NCBI RefSeq assembly: GCF_041295575.1
Contig: NZ_CP160452.1
Location: forward strand, 2,852,001-2,916,000
Source of the DNA: Sporosarcina pasteurii
GTDB taxonomy: Bacteria; Bacillota; Bacilli; Bacillales_A; Planococcaceae
Length of the DNA: 64,000 bases
Direction of reading: 5' to 3'
This document shows positions 50,131-61,503 of this stretch, one piece after another. The notes below the pieces were generated by a model. It was not told the origin of the DNA. It saw only the letters and a list, made by a program, of their open reading frames with translations, and did no database searches. The position numbers and the translations under genes were made by a program. The first letter of the stretch is position 1, and each line of letters starts with the position of its first letter.

Positions 50131-50601
50131 CTAATACATACGATACACCCTCCGTTCCCCCGCCCACGCATGCCCCAAATAAAACGGAAATGCCACAACC
50201 TCCTTCCGCTGAACATACAAAATCTCAGACTTACCCGTTTCATTAAAATCAAAGCTCTTCCCCATCAGATGGGAAGCATTTGTTAACCGCCTCGGCTTTT
50301 CACGATACATTTCCTGATGAAGCGAATAGGCGTCCAATACATCTTCACTGTAGTAGAAGGCAAACAAGCCTGGTTGGTTCGTTTGGACGGCATACAGCTT
50401 TATTTTCCCGATGTTCAACAAGTTCCGCTCCACCATGTCCGAAATCGCTTGTTCATCATATTCAATCTCATCCAGCTTTTCGGAAGCGTCGTCTGCATAC
50501 ACTTTACCTTCTGAAACGGCCCAGAAAACGCGATGTGCGAGGCCAATCATATCGATTTCAATCGCTAAGGAAAGCACTTCTTGTACAGTTACCATCGTCA
50601 C
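50131..50601 (-). CDS. hypothetical protein of the phage-type replication module
   Basis: The product has about 156 residues: VQEVLSLAIEIDMIGLAHRVFWAVSEGKVYADDASEKLDEIEYDEQAI at the N-terminus, then a mixed region ending WAGERRVYRMY. I do not recognise the family. The GTG at 50601 overlaps the helicase stop (GTGA) with GGAAAGG five bases upstream; an ATG at 50595 is an alternative. It is the last gene of the block that holds a phage-type initiator and a broken helicase. Confidence 0.55.
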   Translation of the reverse strand: MTMVTVQEVLSLAIEIDMIGLAHRVFWAVSEGKVYADDASEKLDEIEYDEQAISDMVERNLLNIGKIKLYAVQTNQPGLFAFYYSEDVLDAYSLHQEMYREKPRRLTNASHLMGKSFDFNETGKSEILYVQRKEVVAFPFYLGHAWAGERRVYRMY

Positions 50602-51875
50602 GCCAACCTTTCCGCATTCCAATCGATATTGTAAAGAACACCCGTTTCTTTCACGTACCGGACAGCTACTGTTCCAGTTGGACCGTTGCGGTGTTTCGCA
50701 ATATTGATTTCCAATACATTCGGCTTTTCCGTATCTTTGTCATAGTAATCATCCCGGTATAAAAAGCCAATGACATCGGCGTCTTGTTCAATATTTCCGG
50801 AATCACGTAAGTCGCTCATGACCGGTCTTTTATCGTCTCTCACTTCGACACCACGATTCAGCTGGGATAGACAGACAACTGGACAGTTAAACTCCTTCGC
50901 CATTTGCTTTAAGTCGTTGCTAATTTGTCCCACGACTTCAGTCCGATTATTCTTTGGGTATTCACCCTGGATGATTTGCAAATAATCGATGAAAATGATG
51001 GGTTTCAGGTGTGGATCGGTGTTGATAATTTTTCTTGCTGTGGAACGCATTTGTGACACTTTAAGTCCCGCACGGTCATCGATATGGATATTGGTTGTAG
51101 CCAATTCACTGAGAGTAGGCATCCAGTTCGACTTTTGTTTCTCTGTAAAGTGCTGGTAAGGATCGCGCATGCGTAGTCGATTATAGCGCCCAGTTACGGC
51201 AATTAACCGATCTATCATGGACACCTTGCTCATTTCTAGTGAAAAGATGATTGGTTTATAGCCAGCGACTCCTGCATGCAATGCAAAATGGTTCAACGTA
51301 TCTGTCTTTCCCATAGAGGGCCTCGCTGCGATAATGATGAGTTCAGCAGGTTGAAAACCATCGAGGAGCTTGTCCAAAGCATTCAGTCCTGTCGAAACGC
51401 CTGGTACATGTGCCATCGGTTCGAAAGGCCTTTCAGCCATGCGAATTAAATCTGCTTGAATACTCGTTTCCATTCCCGCACTGCCCTCTTTTTCTAAATC
51501 CTCAAAAGCTTTTTGGATGGCTCCAATCTCCCAACCCCCTTCTTTCGCTTGGAAAAGTATTTTATTCTTCTCACGATTTTTCCACTCTTCCAGCATCATT
51601 TCCACATAACTATCAAACTTCGTTGGACTCGCAAAACTCGTCAAATCGGCCAAGTAATTCGCGCCGCCAAGTGCTGCCGGGTCCATCATCGTGAGGAGCG
51701 TAACATAATCGACGGGGCGTCTTTTGGCTAATCAATCTTGCATGCAACTGAAAATGTTTTTGTGGATATGGCTAATAAAGAAATCAATCTTCACTTCGCT
51801 ATCGGTGATTAAATAGTTTTCCGCTAACATCGTCCCTAACACGCTTTTTTCAATCTGCTCGCTACGTTCCGTCAT
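50598..51875 (-). pseudogene. DnaB-like replicative helicase, broken by in-frame TGA
   Basis: The frame from ATG 51875 encodes a DnaB N-terminal domain (TERSEQIEKSVLGTMLAENY...HKNIFSCMQD), then TGA at 51732-51734 (codon 48), and continues in the same frame with LAKRRPVDYVTLLTMMDPA and the RecA-like helicase domain (ARPSMGKTDTLN Walker A, IIFIDYLQII Walker B, LSQLNRGVE). Without the stop it would be about 425 residues, a normal length for phage DnaB. One base change (TTA to TGA) explains it. A product restarting at 51689 would lack the N-terminal domain. Confidence 0.82.
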
Positions 51876-52664
51876 TTACTCTTCCCCCTTGCTGAAGTCT
51901 AGTTCCGGTAGGATTGGCAGCCCATTATTTGTTGCACTTCGTGTTCCATTTGCACTTCTAAATTCTTCTAAGTAGTTTTCAAAGTTTGTCGCATTGAACA
52001 ATGTCGAAGGCCGTAAATATTTATTCCAATGCGTATTGTTTAGCCACATATTCACTTTCGTGTCGATGATATTTTTGAAATCGGCAAGTTCATACCCTTC
52101 ACGAAAACGTGCATTCACCAATCGCTCTGTTGCTTTTGAAGATGCCTTATATTGCTTGCCAGCTTTTTCATTTAAATAGTTAATCACAGCCACAGCATCG
52201 GGATGCTGCCCGACAGTATGTTTTTTAATACTCTTAACCTCTTTGGTTATTGCTAGTGACATTTTGTCATCGCTAGACATGACAGATTGGGCTTCCCCTT
52301 CAGGACTTTTTGTTACATTCGATAGGTCATTTTGTCCTGTTTGATGTTGAAGCATCGAATAATTAATTCGATACCATTTTGTCTTGTCCATTTTCATGCG
52401 ATTATAAGCATCTGTTGAAACGATAAACCCTTTTTCCTCCAGCCGATGAATTACTCTTTGGATTGTTCTTTCGGACCAAAAAAAGAATTCCTCGTTCTTC
52501 CATTCTTCATATGTCCTGTAAACCCACTTATACCCATCCCGAATGTTTTTTGAGATGAGCGATTTGTAATGTAGTTGCTGTAATAAAATCGCTTCGTTTA
52601 ACCCAACTTCCTTCACTAAAGATGGCAGTACGATTAGCGGAGATTCGTTAATTAATAAATTCAT
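51876..52664 (-). CDS. phage-type replication initiator (TIGR02220-like C-terminus)
   Basis: The 262-residue protein has an N-terminal winged-helix region (LLQQLHYKSLISK...YEEWKNEEFFFWSERTIQRVIHRLEEKGFI, about 27-82) and a C-terminal domain of the conserved phage type: VINYLNEKAGKQYKASSKATERLVNARFREGYELADFKNIID...WNKYLRPSTLFN..NFENYLEEF (about 160-240). Such proteins load the DnaB-like helicase at a phage origin. Its stop lies directly before the helicase ATG. No other phage genes are near, so this is a remnant. Confidence 0.78.
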   Translation of the reverse strand: MNLLINESPLIVLPSLVKEVGLNEAILLQQLHYKSLISKNIRDGYKWVYRTYEEWKNEEFFFWSERTIQRVIHRLEEKGFIVSTDAYNRMKMDKTKWYRINYSMLQHQTGQNDLSNVTKSPEGEAQSVMSSDDKMSLAITKEVKSIKKHTVGQHPDAVAVINYLNEKAGKQYKASSKATERLVNARFREGYELADFKNIIDTKVNMWLNNTHWNKYLRPSTLFNATNFENYLEEFRSANGTRSATNNGLPILPELDFSKGEE

Positions 52665-56403: not shown

Positions 56404-56446
56404 CTTGATATACATCAAGTCTAAATTTGGGTAATCTATATATACT
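56404..56446 (+). promoter_or_regulatory. FNR-type box and promoter of mvaK1
   Basis: CTTGATATACATCAAG (56404-56419) contains a perfect TTGAT-N4-ATCAA. A -10 TATACT lies at 56441-56446 with no -35 at the right distance. The box centre is about 41.5 bases before the expected start, the class II activator position. The regulator is unknown; Bacillus Fnr prefers TGTGA-N6-TCACA, so another Crp/Fnr member is possible. Confidence 0.65.
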
Positions 56447-56509
56447 ACTTCAGTTAAAATCAATTTATTAAATTTGCTGACGGCTGAAGCAAAGAAAAGG
56501 TGATTGTAG

Positions 56510-57454
56510 TTGGAAGATTTTTTAGCATCAAAAAGAAATACAAGTGGTTTCTCACATAGTAAAATCATTTTGACCGGAGAACATGCAGTTGTTTATGGAA
56601 ATCCGGCTATTGCGCTGCCATTTCCACTCAAAGTGGAGGCTATCATTGAAGAAATAACAAGTGACATCATCGTAGAATCTACGTTTTATACCGGACCGTT
56701 GGAACAGATTCCTACAAAATTAAAAGGAATCAGCGCCTGTATCCAACAAGTTTTGAGCGATTTAAATCGTCCTTGTGACAAACTAAAGATAACGATTCAT
56801 TCCCAAATTCCTATTGGGAAAGGTCTTGGATCTAGTGCGGCGATTGCTGTCGCGATTGTCAGAGGATTATTTTCCTTTTTCGAAACGAAGTTAGATGACG
56901 AGACACTGGCAGCCTTTGTACATACTGCTGAAGTGTATGCTCACGGGAATCCAAGTGGCATCGATATGGCTACAGCGATGAGCGATACACCCATCTGGTT
57001 TCAAAACGGAGACATTGTTCGTCTCGAAGTCACTTCCCCTCTCCATTTTGTAATTGCTGATTCAGGAAGGATTGGTAATACGCAAAAAACAGTGAGTCGG
57101 GTCAGAGCGCTATACGATAAAGATGAAGTTTTAAAGGAAAACTCATTGAGAAGAATGAAAGAAATTGCTTTTGCCGCTAAATCTGCCATGGCCAAAGGGG
57201 ATATACTGGAACTCGGCAAACTCCTTAATAAAAATCATTCTGAATTGATTCGAATTGGCGTGAGTGATGATGGGTTGAATCAACTTGTCCATACTGCGAA
57301 AAAAGCGGGAGCGCTTGGGGCCAAATTAACAGGTGGCGGTGATGGGGGCTGTATGCTTGCTTTGACGGACTCAAAGGAGAAAGCGGAAGAAATTTCAAGT
57401 GCGCTAGCTTCTGCAGGCGCACATCAAACGTGGTGCTTTACAATTGAATCTTAG
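56510..57454 (+). CDS. mvaK1: mevalonate kinase
   Basis: It phosphorylates mevalonate with ATP. The 314-residue GHMP kinase shows SKIILTGEHAVVYGNPAIALP (about 17-37), the ATP loop PIGKGLGSSAA (101-111), HGNPSGIDMAT (about 145-155) with the catalytic Asp, and the third motif LTGGGDGGCMLAL near the end. It starts at TTG with AAAGGTG upstream. It has its own promoter with an FNR-type box and its own terminator, and is followed by the permease-mvaD-mvaK2 operon with a matching box. Confidence 0.93.
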   Translation: MEDFLASKRNTSGFSHSKIILTGEHAVVYGNPAIALPFPLKVEAIIEEITSDIIVESTFYTGPLEQIPTKLKGISACIQQVLSDLNRPCDKLKITIHSQIPIGKGLGSSAAIAVAIVRGLFSFFETKLDDETLAAFVHTAEVYAHGNPSGIDMATAMSDTPIWFQNGDIVRLEVTSPLHFVIADSGRIGNTQKTVSRVRALYDKDEVLKENSLRRMKEIAFAAKSAMAKGDILELGKLLNKNHSELIRIGVSDDGLNQLVHTAKKAGALGAKLTGGGDGGCMLALTDSKEKAEEISSALASAGAHQTWCFTIES

Positions 57455-57498
57455 GTAAATGATTTAATAGAATAGACAATACGTTTTACATTTATGGC

Positions 57499-57535
57499 GA
57501 ATCATTCATTCCTCCAAAATGGATGATTCTTTTTT
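57499..57535 (+). terminator. terminator of mvaK1
   Basis: A 12-bp stem GAATCATTCATT/AATGGATGATTC (one G-U) is followed by TTTTTT, so mvaK1 is monocistronic. Confidence 0.88.
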
Positions 57536-57539
57536 CAAA

Positions 57540-57581
57540 CTTGATGTACGTCAAGTTTTTTTGATGCCTTTCATGTAAACT
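57540..57581 (+). promoter_or_regulatory. FNR-like box and promoter of the permease-mvaD-mvaK2 operon
   Basis: CTTGATGTACGTCAAG (57540-57555) is a perfect palindrome with one change per... half limited to the second arm relative to TTGAT-N4-ATCAA (GTCAA). A -10-like ATGTAAACT with TAAACT at 57576-57581 puts the box centre again near -41.5. Confidence 0.55.
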
Positions 57582-57597
57582 ACACATATCTTCCCTC

Positions 57598-57627
57598 TTG
57601 AGAATGATTCTCAATTTCATTTACAAT
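57598..57627 (+). promoter_or_regulatory. second promoter with Fur-like box
   Basis: TTGAGA (57598-57603), an 18-base spacer and TACAAT (57622-57627) form a sigma-A promoter. TGAGAATGATTCTCA (57599-57613) covers its -35 and is a perfect 7-1-7 palindrome that differs from the Fur consensus TGATAATNATTATCA at two symmetric positions. Confidence 0.55.
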
Positions 57628-57658
57628 AGGATATATCATAGAAAGGATGTGTCATTTT

Positions 57659-57925
57659 ATGAGTCATCATAAAAAAGGACATCAAAATACCCAAGATCAT
57701 GAAAAAGAAAATATTGAGGTATGGGAAGATCTCGTTCATATAAAGGATTTGCTTTTAGCATTACTAATCTGTTCCGTCACGACACTCAGCGGTTATTTTA
57801 TTGCCCCAAGTGAACCCCCTAAACCATTATTTTTTGGTTTGTTCGGAGCCTTGATTGGCTTTTTAATTACGAGTATAATCATACAGCCGAAACGAACTTT
57901 TAATGGGACAAAGGAGGAGAAATAA
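57659..57925 (+). CDS. small His-rich two-segment membrane protein
   Basis: The 88-residue protein begins MSHHKKGHQNTQDHEKENIE, a hydrophilic His-rich tail, followed by two membrane segments (about 32-48 and 57-78) and a basic end. It lies one base before the permease start and is surely co-translated. TctA permeases normally pair with a four-segment TctB; this smaller protein could take that place, or the His tail could bind metal. I do not recognise a family. GAAAGGA lies 11 bases before the ATG at 57659; an ATG at 57647 is unlikely. Confidence 0.7.
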   Translation: MSHHKKGHQNTQDHEKENIEVWEDLVHIKDLLLALLICSVTTLSGYFIAPSEPPKPLFFGLFGALIGFLITSIIIQPKRTFNGTKEEK

Positions 57926-57926
57926 T

Positions 57927-59285
57927 ATGGATATAACCTTACTTTTGCAAATGGTTGGTATCGCAATGCTCGCGGCGATTATTTATACGATTATTGGCGT
58001 TGCGCCTGGAACGGATGAGACGGCAACCATTGCCCCAGTCATATTGGTCCTAGTATTATCCGGACTAGAGCCAATCCTTGTCCTTACTTTCTTTATGTCT
58101 GCCATTGTTTCTAGTAAATTGACAGATTCCATTCCTGTCGCTCTAGCTGGAATTCCCGGGGGCGTCATGGCGACCCCGCAAGTAGAGCATGCACTTATCT
58201 TAAAAAAACATGGCCTAACGGATGTAACGATTCGAAAAATGGCTTCGGGTTCTGTCATTGGGACACTCGTTTCTGTGCCTGTGAGTTTATTATTTGCTCA
58301 TGCACTCATCCCGTTCGCTGATGTCATTAAGGAATACGGGAGCTCATTGTTTTTTGCTGGCGCGATTATACTAGCACTCATAAGTAAAAATCGCTGGGTA
58401 GCACTAGTATCGATTCTCCCCTTCGCACTTTTAATCGAAGGGTTACGCCATCTCTATTGGGATACTGGCGTAGTACCAGCGGGAACGAATGTATTTATTT
58501 CTTTCTTCCTCGGCATTACAATTGGTCCAATGATCGTAACTTTGTTTGGATTGTTAAACAAGGAAAAAAGAGATCGATTAGAACGATTTGGGAAAAAAGA
58601 CATCTATTTTAAACAAGAGAAGATAGATGGAATAAAAGCAAATCCATTTACCATTTTAACTAAGAAGGAGATTGGATTCAGTTCTTTATCCTCAGCGATT
58701 GGCTCCATTGCGTTTATTCTGAGCCCTGTCGGTTTAACGACATTTCTCGGGGAAGTGTTTACGAGTAGAATAAAGGACCCGGTAAAGAAAGCGTCTCTTG
58801 CCATTGCCTCTATGGATGCATTGGCAAATGCCACTTATATTTCGGGTGTGTTGATCCCACTCATTGCGCTTGGAATTCCATTGTCTCCGACGGCAATGGG
58901 CCCTGGTAATCCTTTATTTAACGCACCACCCGTTTTCACCATCGATCATAATCTCCACCATATTCTTTCAAATGGTGACTTTATTTCGGCTACTTTAGTT
59001 GGTGCAATCGTTGCCCTGGCCATTACTTATTTCCTTACGATCAAATATTCTAGGCAAATTTGTATTTTTGTTTTCAAACGGATTCCACACGAAGCGATGC
59101 TCGGTTTATTCTTTAGTTTAGTCCTCCTTCTCGCCTTTATGGATGGCGGTTGGATGAATGTGGCCGGTGTTTTTCTTGTTGGATTTGTTGCGGGAACACT
59201 ACATCGTACAGGGGTCAATTACGGGGTACAATTTATGACACTTTATTCTGCACCGTGGATTATTTCACTGCTTGCAAATCTTTAA
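57927..59285 (+). CDS. TctA-like permease in the mevalonate cluster
   Basis: The 452-residue protein has about 11 membrane segments. It resembles the large TctA permease of tripartite tricarboxylate transporters: VALAGIPGGVMATPQVEHAL (about 67-86) in place of the GIPGT...A motif, and the second-half LIALGIPLSPTAMGPGNPLF (about 310-329). No TctC binding protein is encoded here. AAAGGAGG decides the ATG at 57927. It is followed by mvaD after 19 bases. Uptake or export of mevalonate or a related acid is an inference from context only. Confidence 0.75.
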   Translation: MDITLLLQMVGIAMLAAIIYTIIGVAPGTDETATIAPVILVLVLSGLEPILVLTFFMSAIVSSKLTDSIPVALAGIPGGVMATPQVEHALILKKHGLTDVTIRKMASGSVIGTLVSVPVSLLFAHALIPFADVIKEYGSSLFFAGAIILALISKNRWVALVSILPFALLIEGLRHLYWDTGVVPAGTNVFISFFLGITIGPMIVTLFGLLNKEKRDRLERFGKKDIYFKQEKIDGIKANPFTILTKKEIGFSSLSSAIGSIAFILSPVGLTTFLGEVFTSRIKDPVKKASLAIASMDALANATYISGVLIPLIALGIPLSPTAMGPGNPLFNAPPVFTIDHNLHHILSNGDFISATLVGAIVALAITYFLTIKYSRQICIFVFKRIPHEAMLGLFFSLVLLLAFMDGGWMNVAGVFLVGFVAGTLHRTGVNYGVQFMTLYSAPWIISLLANL

Positions 59286-59304
59286 TTTTGAAAGGAAAGA
59301 TGAC

Positions 59305-60306
59305 ATGCCTGAACATAGAAAGTTTGAACAGGTGACTGCTAAGGCGCATGCGAACATCGCCTTAATTAAATATTGGGGGAAACGGGATGAAGAATTATTT
59401 CTACCGATGAATTCCAGTCTTTCGGTCACACTAGACAAATTTTACACAGAAACTTCTGTACAGTTTTGTGGGAAATTAAAAAAAGATGTTTTTATCTTTA
59501 ACAACAATATTGCGGATGAAGCCGAAACGAATAAGGTTTCTAATTACTTAAACCAAATACGAAAAATGGCAGGAGTGGAGCGGTATGCAATGGTCCAGTC
59601 AGTTAACCACGTGCCAACCGCCGCTGGATTTGCTTCCTCGGCTTCTGGATATGCAGCACTTGCATCCGCTGCTGTACGAGCAATTGATTTAGATATCGAT
59701 CAGAAGAAACTGACGCAAGTGGCACGAATTGGGTCAGGTTCTGCCTGTCGTTCCATTTATGGCGGTTTTGTTGAATGGACAAAAGGAGATTTAGAAGATG
59801 GTTCTGATTGTTATGCTAGACAGCTTGAAAACGAAGACTATTGGGATTTAAGCATTCTTGCCATCCAATTATCTGCCGAAGAAAAGTCCCTTTCAAGCCG
59901 TGCGGGAATGAAACTTACAGTTGACACTTCCCCCTATTACGAACTATGGGTGAAAGAGGCCGGGAAGGATCTTGCGACACTAAAAGATGCGCTTCGTCAT
60001 AAGGATTTTGAACAACTTGGTCAAGTAACCGAATCCAATGCGTTAAAAATGCACGCAACTACCTTGGGCGCAAATCCTCCTCATTGGTACTGGGAACCAG
60101 GCACCATCTCCGTCATGAATCAAGTACGAAAACTGAGGGATTCTGGGATTCCGGCATATTTTACAATGGATGCAGGGCCAAATGTATTTGTTTTATGTCA
60201 GCAAAGAGATAAAGAAGTTGTTGAGCAAACGCTTCTTACCCTTAAAGAAGTTCAAAAAATATATGTTTGCCAGCCCGGCCCTGGGGTATCCTACTTGGCA
60301 AAATAA
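59305..60306 (+). CDS. mvaD: diphosphomevalonate decarboxylase
   Basis: It makes isopentenyl diphosphate by ATP-dependent decarboxylation. The 333-residue GHMP-fold enzyme has the family signature ANIALIKYWGKRDEELFLP (about 16-34) with MNSSLSVTL, the ATP loop VPTAAGFASSASGYAAL (about 103-119), and SGSACRSIYGGFVEW with the conserved Ser and Arg. The catalytic Asp is in TMDAGPNV near residue 288. AAAGGAAAG precedes the ATG at 59305. It lies between the permease and mvaK2. Confidence 0.95.
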   Translation: MPEHRKFEQVTAKAHANIALIKYWGKRDEELFLPMNSSLSVTLDKFYTETSVQFCGKLKKDVFIFNNNIADEAETNKVSNYLNQIRKMAGVERYAMVQSVNHVPTAAGFASSASGYAALASAAVRAIDLDIDQKKLTQVARIGSGSACRSIYGGFVEWTKGDLEDGSDCYARQLENEDYWDLSILAIQLSAEEKSLSSRAGMKLTVDTSPYYELWVKEAGKDLATLKDALRHKDFEQLGQVTESNALKMHATTLGANPPHWYWEPGTISVMNQVRKLRDSGIPAYFTMDAGPNVFVLCQQRDKEVVEQTLLTLKEVQKIYVCQPGPGVSYLAK

Positions 60307-60331
60307 CGATTGAAGATAAAGGTGGATAGAT

Positions 60332-61486
60332 ATGACTGTTTCAAGTTACCGGATAAAAGTTCCAGGTAAAATGATGATTGCTGGAGAATATGCAGTATTA
60401 GAACCTGGACAACTAGCGGTTGTGGGTGCCATTACCCGTTATGTGACTGTCAGGATTGAGGATGGGACGAAAAACGCCCTCTCCATACCAGCGTTTGGGC
60501 TAAAAGAGATTACATGGGGTGATGATTCTGAATGTCTATTGAGCACGAAGGATCATCGGCTTCGCTTCATTCAAAATGCGCTGGTTGTTGCGACTCGCTT
60601 TCTTCGCGAAAAGAATGTGCCCATTCAGAAGTGCTCGATAACCACCTTAAGTGAACTTGATGATAAAGACTCAGGGGTAAAATATGGGCTTGGTTCAAGT
60701 GCAGCAATCACAGTAGCGGTTGTGACCGCAATGATAAAATTCCATCTTAACGATGAGGATGACATATCGCAGGATAAAATTTTTAAATTAGCTGTGATTG
60801 CCCATTTCTTAACACAACAAAATGGATCGGGAGCAGATATTGCCGCGGCCGTTTATGGCGGACTCCTCGCCTATTGTACTTTTAATAGCGATTGGTTAAA
60901 GGAGAAATTGGAACATGACGAGCCATTCACGTCATTAGTCGAGCAGCATTGGCCGGATCTTATGATTGAGCGGCTGAATCCTTCCGAAGCGTTCTCCATG
61001 TCTGTCGGCTGGACAAAAGAGTCAGCTGCAACCGGGCCAATGGTCAATAAAATACAGACCTTTCAACTGGAAAGTCCGCTTATGTATGCGCGCTTTTTAG
61101 AGGAAAGCCATGCTGCTGTCACCCGTTTCATTCAGGGAATCAAAACAGATCATCAACAAGACGTGTTAGCAGCGATAAAGGAAAACCGTCTATTGCTGAA
61201 ACGTCTCGGTGAGGATGCAGGTGTACCAATTGAAACAGCGGAACTCACTAATTTATGTCAGATTGCTGAAAAGTTCGGGAGTGGCAAATTGTCTGGAGCA
61301 GGTGGCGGAGATTGCGGAATAGCTTTCTTAAACGACTCGGAGCAGAAGCATAACTTAATGGAGGCTTGGCAAGCCGCAGGGATTGAACCACTTGATCTGG
61401 AAATTTCAATTCCCGGTGTCACCTTCATTGAATATGATCGTAAACTAGCGTTAGGTCAATACTTACAAATCCAGCATCAAGAATAG
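60332..61486 (+). CDS. mvaK2: phosphomevalonate kinase
   Basis: It converts 5-phosphomevalonate to 5-diphosphomevalonate. The 384-residue GHMP kinase shows KVPGKMMIAGEYAVLEPGQLA (about 9-29), the ATP loop KYGLGSSAAITVAVV (about 117-131), NGSGADIAAAVYGG (about 168-181) and the third motif KLSGAGGGDCGIAFL (about 322-336). The length is typical of the Gram-positive enzyme. AAAGGTGG precedes the ATG. It ends the operon; the terminator overlaps its last codons. Confidence 0.95.
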   Translation: MTVSSYRIKVPGKMMIAGEYAVLEPGQLAVVGAITRYVTVRIEDGTKNALSIPAFGLKEITWGDDSECLLSTKDHRLRFIQNALVVATRFLREKNVPIQKCSITTLSELDDKDSGVKYGLGSSAAITVAVVTAMIKFHLNDEDDISQDKIFKLAVIAHFLTQQNGSGADIAAAVYGGLLAYCTFNSDWLKEKLEHDEPFTSLVEQHWPDLMIERLNPSEAFSMSVGWTKESAATGPMVNKIQTFQLESPLMYARFLEESHAAVTRFIQGIKTDHQQDVLAAIKENRLLLKRLGEDAGVPIETAELTNLCQIAEKFGSGKLSGAGGGDCGIAFLNDSEQKHNLMEAWQAAGIEPLDLEISIPGVTFIEYDRKLALGQYLQIQHQE

Positions 61487-61503
61487 ATGCTGGATTTTGT
61501 TTT
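61467..61503 (+). terminator. terminator of the mevalonate operon
   Basis: A 12-bp perfect stem AAATCCAGCATC/GATGCTGGATTT with a 7-base loop is followed by TGTTTTT. The stop codon of mvaK2 lies inside the hairpin. Confidence 0.9.

Follow-up and report, generated by a model that had tools for sequence, protein, structure and literature searches.

A 64,000-nucleotide stretch of the Sporosarcina pasteurii genome (the window; positions 2,852,001 to 2,916,000 of contig NZ_CP160452.1) carries three genes of the lower mevalonate pathway, interleaved with a TctA-like permease gene and a small membrane gene, at 56404-61503 of the plus strand. We consider it rather probable that this locus is a mevalonate uptake-and-salvage operon that bypasses the methylerythritol phosphate (MEP) pathway, with its permease unit repressed by Fur and switched on when iron is short. 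With somewhat less confidence we favour a broader view, that the TctA superfamily includes a widespread, naturally occurring importer of mevalonate, found in Bacillota and Proteobacteria and coupled, in bacteria using the MEP pathway, to a Fur-repressed route from mevalonate to isopentenyl diphosphate for iron-sparing cross-feeding.

The initial annotation of the window had suggested import and salvage. The suggestion is strengthened by three observations, namely the lack of a detectable 3-hydroxy-3-methylglutaryl-CoA (HMG-CoA) synthase (mvaS) or reductase in the host, the two MEP-pathway genes dxr and ispH that the host carries, and the location of permeases of the same family beside HMG-CoA reductase, partly with HMG-CoA lyase, in other bacteria.

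Genes of the locus

All five genes were recovered as annotated, in the order mvaK1, small membrane gene, permease, mvaD and mvaK2. The relative order mvaK1-mvaD-mvaK2 of the staphylococcal operon is kept around the two membrane genes. The three enzymes all exceed curated NCBIfam cut-offs, align over most of their lengths to solved counterparts and retain the glycine-rich motifs.

The mevalonate kinase gene mvaK1 (56510..57454 including the stop, + strand, with the TTG start as listed) scores 277.9 bits to TIGR00549 with a cut-off of 163.05. Its product aligns at residues 9-309 to the solved mevalonate kinases 2oi2 and 2x7i, and keeps GLGSSAA and PSGID. The diphosphomevalonate decarboxylase gene mvaD (59305..60306, +) reaches 350 bits to TIGR01240 (cut-off 171.35), with residues 12-329 aligned to the solved enzyme 5v2l. 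The phosphomevalonate kinase gene mvaK2 (60332..61486, +) reaches 313.6 bits to TIGR01220 (cut-off 165.7), and its product aligns to the solved structures 3k17 and 1k47 and keeps GLGSSAA and SGAGGGDCGIAF.

The TctA-like permease of 452 amino acids (57927..59285, +) is the proposed mevalonate importer. It matches PF01970 with 104.7 bits (cut-off 28.9) at residues 20-439 of the 460-amino-acid frame scanned, whereas an NCBIfam scan at E 0.001 gave no family. The small membrane protein of 88 amino acids (57659..57925, +) is TctB-like by position only. Only 1 base parts the small gene from the permease gene, 19 bases part the latter from mvaD, as first reported and now re-measured, and 25 bases part mvaD from mvaK2.

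Isoprenoid routes of the host

The host genome (G000) is a single contig of 3.3 Mb and 99.99% complete. The initial annotation had noted no upper-pathway genes near the mva genes, and the absence extends to the complete genome, where the PF08540 search for HMG-CoA synthase gave 0 candidates and the PF00368 search found no HMG-CoA reductase. Hence the host does not have the synthase and reductase of a complete mevalonate pathway by these profiles.

The PF08540 profile is sensitive enough, because it gave mvaS matches over its cut-off in 16/50 more distant permease-carrying relatives. Seven of these genes, of 390-412 amino acids, were inspected and read as mvaS by eye, and a reductase, also recognised by eye, lies close by in 4/7.

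Two markers of the MEP route, dxr and ispH, are both present in the host, and its MEP route is thereby very probably complete. The arrangement named beforehand as refuting salvage, in which mvaS and mvaA lie elsewhere in the genome, the pathway is full and MEP genes are missing, was looked for and the opposite was found.

Comparison with tripartite tricarboxylate transporters

The host permease resembles the TctA subunit of the tripartite tricarboxylate transporters in its full-length PF01970 match. Unlike the canonical systems, it has no TctC binding protein nearby by a search of the genome, no recognisable TctB and a distinct gene context. The two TctC genes of the host genome each lie beside one of two other, canonical TctA loci. 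The permease is 28% identical over 319 residues to one of these canonical TctA proteins and has no match to the other at 1e-3.

The small protein occupies the TctB position directly before the permease, and its homologue does so in 20/20 fetched regions of relatives from the same order. It reaches no Pfam family above cut-off, and no TctB match was obtained at E 1 in the 11 members scanned.

Association of the permease with mevalonate enzymes

Within the host's order, permease relatives occur in 44/261 genomes. The mvaD gene is above cut-off in 13/261 genomes, all of the host genus, and these are 13 among the 44 permease-positive genomes and 0/217 of the permease-negative ones. Fisher's test on this association gives 1.7e-11 for the order and 2.7e-10 for the 68 genomes of the genus. 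Both values treat the genomes as independent and, since the genomes are related, are guides only.

For the enzyme tests 32 genomes of the order were chosen, 28/44 permease-positive and 4/217 permease-negative. IspH was present in 32/32 and HMG-CoA synthase in 0/32. HMG-CoA reductase was found in 20/28 permease-positive versus 0/4 permease-negative genomes, and in 20/20 of the positive genomes reductase and permease are 405-957 bp apart, an arrangement of mevalonate-degrading operons that the host does not have. All 8 permease-positive genomes without the reductase carry mvaD. Since mvaS is missing from all 32, the reductase beside the permease is likely not biosynthetic in these genomes. One genome (G205) has a decayed second permease copy with several stops (L192) alongside an intact copy.

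Among the 44 permease-positive genomes, 20 permease regions were inspected, plus four more places in three genomes. The reductase starts within about 2.2 kb upstream of the permease in 15/20 regions, and HMG-CoA lyase lies directly downstream of the permease in 6/20, all six among those 15. Some reductase-permease operons thus add the lyase to give a mevalonate-degrading set. One regional reductase scores 445.6 bits to the 'degradative' model TIGR00532 (cut-off 259.95), which was matched by 3/3 reductases scanned, and the one lyase checked by profile scores 435 bits to NF004283 (cut-off 246).

The 'degradative' label is in practice also attached to biosynthetic enzymes, so the argument for mevalonate degradation rests on the absence of the synthase and on the lyase where present. 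A gene for an XRE-cupin regulator stands within about 2.5 kb in 13/20 inspected regions. This PuuR-like gene lies in or just before the reductase-permease operons (L037, L039-L042, L044-L049, L051 and L052), and its product is a candidate mevalonate sensor.

The association reaches Proteobacteria. Six plasmid-borne permease relatives are 35.6-39.0% identical to the host permease, two of them unannotated and read by tblastn, and the reductase lies beside the permease in 6/6. The lyase is directly after the permease in 3/6, nearby in 1/6 and not found in 2/6. Plasmids of two Roseomonas, Lichenicola and Rhizobium have the reductase, the small protein and the permease, with the lyase after (three) or nearby (the fourth), and two Burkholderia records have the same three genes in a stretch where a lyase was not found. 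The loci L220, L221, L223 and L224, on large plasmids, adjoin a gene annotated as pyridoxal phosphate-dependent aminotransferase family, perhaps a regulator, and three of these four have transposase genes near.

A scan of named genomes returned 355 permease relatives, of which the best 80, 59-80% identical, were analysed. Their loci adjoin mvaK1, mvaD or mvaK2 in 39 cases, the reductase in 14 and neither in 27, and all genomes of the 27 unlinked permeases have mvaD above cut-off elsewhere. The linkage of the permease to mva genes is more than chance, because it recurs in 39/80 loci and in four gene orders, counting the host's.

All four orders hold the permease within or beside the mva genes. 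The commonest is small gene-permease-mvaK1-mvaD-mvaK2 at 28 loci (one cut by a contig end), 12 of which include a relative of the type 2 isopentenyl-diphosphate isomerase, recognised by TIGR02151 in two loci scanned and by similarity in the others. The order mvaK1-mvaD-small gene-permease-mvaK2 is found at 6 loci (Clostridium and Anaeromonas), and mvaK1-mvaD-mvaK2-isomerase-small gene-permease at 4 (Sporolactobacillus and Terrilactibacillus). The host order occurs at 1 locus, in Neobacillus mesonae, and likewise in the sister genome G232.

Markers of the two isoprenoid routes, mvaS and dxr, were tested in 50 of the roughly 79 genomes that contribute the 80 loci. Like the host, 34 have dxr and no mvaS. 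Both markers are present in 3, and dxr is absent in 13/50, all mvaS-positive. Hence no genome among the 50 is without both routes by these markers.

Fur-type boxes

A Fur-type box of the 7-1-7 form, TGAGAATGATTCTCA, lies at 57599..57613, before the small gene and overlapping the −35 element of a promoter-like site. It has 2 mismatches to the Fur consensus TGATAATNATTATCA and is the only match at ≤2 mismatches in the window. In the sister genome the box is TGAGAATGATTATCA, with 1 mismatch. The host thus has the 7-1-7 inverted repeat over a promoter that is expected of a Fur regulon, as judged by the match to this consensus and by a promoter that is itself a consensus match only.

Boxes at ≤2 mismatches precede genes of 24/39 mva-linked operons, the host excluded, in all four gene orders, and five are perfect. 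They are found at 0/14 reductase-linked and 0/27 unlinked permease loci. The difference of 24/39 versus 0/41 has a Fisher value of 1.5e-10, for boxes selected by consensus match in related genomes that are not independent samples. This count covers the DNA upstream of every operon gene. An earlier one, covering the 250 bp in front of the block's first gene with the same threshold, gave 20/40 mva-linked (the host included), 0/14 reductase-linked and 0/27 unlinked loci.

The operon intergenic stretches hold 29 such sites, versus 0.5 expected from other sequence or 0.9 from other intergenic DNA. For all 26 boxes of the 24 operons, the host and the sister, Fur is a closer match than PerR or Zur, but the boxes had been picked beforehand by the Fur consensus. 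Independently of this picking, the 80 loci have 22 sites to Fur, 4 to PerR and 1 to Zur at ≤1 mismatch.

The boxes also follow the isoprenoid route. Among mva-linked operons they occur in 23/31 of those in genomes with dxr and no mvaS versus 0/7 in mvaS-positive ones (Fisher 5e-4), and one further box-positive genome was not typed for these markers. The boxes before mva-linked permease operons are a new result here; the literature on Fur with mevalonate was not searched.

Transcription units and FNR/CRP-type palindromes

The initial annotation had placed all five genes on one strand, which stands, and the permease on the transcript of mvaD. One point is amended: a terminator-like hairpin of 12 pairs with a T run 3′ of mvaK1 (57499..57529, +) and the promoter-like site TTGAGA-18-TACAAT (57598..57627, +) stand between mvaK1 and the other genes. 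The locus is therefore probably transcribed as two units, one of mvaK1 only and one of small gene-permease-mvaD-mvaK2. The promoter-like site has the joint best score in the region, 10/12, in a scan that overall gave 16 sites versus 13.5 in shuffles, that is no excess. Another terminator-like hairpin of 12 pairs (61467..61497, +) ends the module.

Each unit is preceded by an FNR/CRP-type palindrome. The first, CTTGATATACATCAAG, is at 56404..56419, with an exact TTGATRTACRTCAA at 56405-56418 before mvaK1. Its first base is also the start of the region given in the initial annotation, which did not note the palindrome. From its centre, a TATACT hexamer (56441-56446) is 29.5 bp downstream. The second, TTGATGTACGTCAA, is at 57541..57554, ahead of the Fur-type box, and a TAAACT hexamer (57576-57581) is 28.5 bp downstream of its centre. 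Such a distance of about 29 bp to a −10-like hexamer is the spacing of a class II activator. The sister genome has TTGACGTACATCAA and TTGACCTACATCAA at the same respective places.

Beyond these two, no exact TTGATRTACRTCAA site occurs in the 3.3 Mb of the genome. Relatives with one mismatch number 20 elsewhere in it, both strands of a palindrome counted, versus 3 in the reversed control. Ten of these loci were read and no clear FNR regulon emerged. More loosely, TTGA-N6-TCAA occurs in 6/81 upstream stretches of the mva loci (about 1.5 expected from the loci rate), 0/27 at the reductase loci and 1/27 at the other loci, and G223 has no such site before its operon. The palindromes are weaker evidence than the Fur box.

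Some other FNR-like sites of the host genome were seen in passing. Two near-identical ones, 111 bp apart at G000:C1:3058914 and 3059025 (L206, 1501 and 1612), stand upstream of a 346-amino-acid open reading frame on the other strand. Another, TTGATTTACATCAA at G000:C1:1713191 (L200, 1501), is just upstream of a 114-amino-acid frame, and the next frame resembles hypA for hydrogenase nickel insertion by eye. Elsewhere in the window, a frame at 50598-51689 (−) resembles a DnaB-type helicase by eye and adjoins a replication-like frame at 51876-52664, possibly a remnant of a mobile element.

Discussion

The last two enzymes of the MEP pathway, IspG and IspH, need 4Fe-4S clusters, and the salvage enzymes MvaK1, MvaK2 and MvaD need no iron-sulphur cluster. 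In iron-replete cells isoprenoids would be made by the MEP route, and the permease unit would probably be repressed by Fur. As iron falls, IspG and IspH would become limiting, Fur would leave its box, and the permease and the iron-free enzymes would be made. The permease, probably with the small protein, would then take up external mevalonate, presumably released by neighbours, and the three enzymes would convert it to isopentenyl diphosphate, bypassing the cell's own MEP pathway. An FNR/CRP-type activator may contribute a second signal. Iron would pose no such threat to isoprenoids in the genomes that have mvaS and no dxr, and their permease operons show no Fur boxes.

The permease family sits with both mevalonate-oxidising and mevalonate-phosphorylating enzyme sets, and mevalonate thereby suggests itself as their common entry substrate. 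The substrate is deduced from neighbours alone, and the permease might instead carry a related acid, such as 3-hydroxy-3-methylglutarate, a mevalonolactone-derived one or another branched hydroxy acid, or might export mevalonate, as the 16/50 relatives with mvaS could produce it themselves. However, mevalonate and not 3-hydroxy-3-methylglutarate is common to both linked enzyme sets, and a host with no detected synthase or reductase has nothing to export. We regard this alternative as improbable, if the least so of those considered.

Slightly more improbable still is that the permease acquires iron, for example as a citrate-like chelate, with the mva genes as incidental neighbours. TctA homologues carry tricarboxylates, and such a role would account for a Fur-type box in the promoter. 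Against it, the 14 reductase-linked and 27 unlinked permeases of the same family have no box at ≤2 mismatches, no TctC accompanies the host permease, and what recurs beside the family, in Bacillota as in Proteobacteria, are mevalonate enzymes from two different pathways.

Two further alternatives are both very unlikely. In one, a divergent synthase and reductase that escape the profiles supply the host with mevalonate, the permease being accessory. The absence of both enzymes is indeed based on a single profile per enzyme, but PF08540 succeeds in the 16 relatives while giving no candidate in the host, PF00368 detects the reductase in 20/32 relatives, and such enzymes are unnecessary where two markers point to the MEP route.

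The other sees the module as a non-functional passenger of recent acquisition. The permease tree places the host in a nine-member mva-linked clade with the sister genome, Neobacillus mesonae, Clostridium and Anaeromonas (support 99/97). Apart from the sister genome, the other members of its genus fall elsewhere in the tree, so the permease was probably acquired horizontally from outside the genus. Yet all genes are open with active-site motifs retained, and the sister genome has kept the Fur box as well as the two palindromes, which argue against a passenger.

Several points weigh against Fur-controlled mevalonate salvage itself. We infer mevalonate transport, its direction, the binding of Fur and the physiological benefit from sequence. 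The best-known substrates of the permease superfamily are tricarboxylates, and a structural comparison of the permease was uninformative. With mvaS in 16/50 of the permease-carrying genomes, salvage is not the sole setting of the family.

As to Fur, 8/31 mva-linked operons in genomes with dxr and no mvaS have no box, nor do 10/10 permease-free mva operons of the genus or the permease loci of five genus genomes with the permease apart from the mva genes. The host mvaK1 also has none (best 5 mismatches), so under Fur control of the permease unit the first kinase would be under separate control. The selection of boxes by consensus and the relatedness of the genomes, given above with the tests, count on the same side.

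Among known systems, the staphylococcal or Gram-positive lower mevalonate operon has the same three enzymes in the same relative order. The host differs from it in the two added membrane genes, the MEP markers, the Fur-type and FNR-type sites and the upper pathway not found. The mevalonate-degrading operon of Pseudomonas mevalonii is mvaA-mvaB. Relatives of the host permease likewise adjoin the degradative-type HMG-CoA reductase, some with HMG-CoA lyase, whereas the host has neither enzyme and would phosphorylate rather than oxidise mevalonate.

Mevalonate importers described in PMC12405511 are mutant forms, MCT1 F360C and an evolved yeast JEN1. The substrate and direction proposed for the host permease are the same. 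However, those are mutated and unrelated eukaryotic transporters, and the host candidate is natural and of another superfamily. A full-text literature search, with subscription journals mostly outside its coverage, found no paper that connects a TctA or tripartite tricarboxylate transporter to mevalonate.

A natural family of mevalonate importers, if true, would be a usable part for isoprenoid engineering. The effect of MEP inhibitors such as fosmidomycin would then depend on the surrounding mevalonate, and mevalonate would be a nutrient traded among bacteria. The link to Fur would explain why bacteria with the MEP pathway retain half of a second one.

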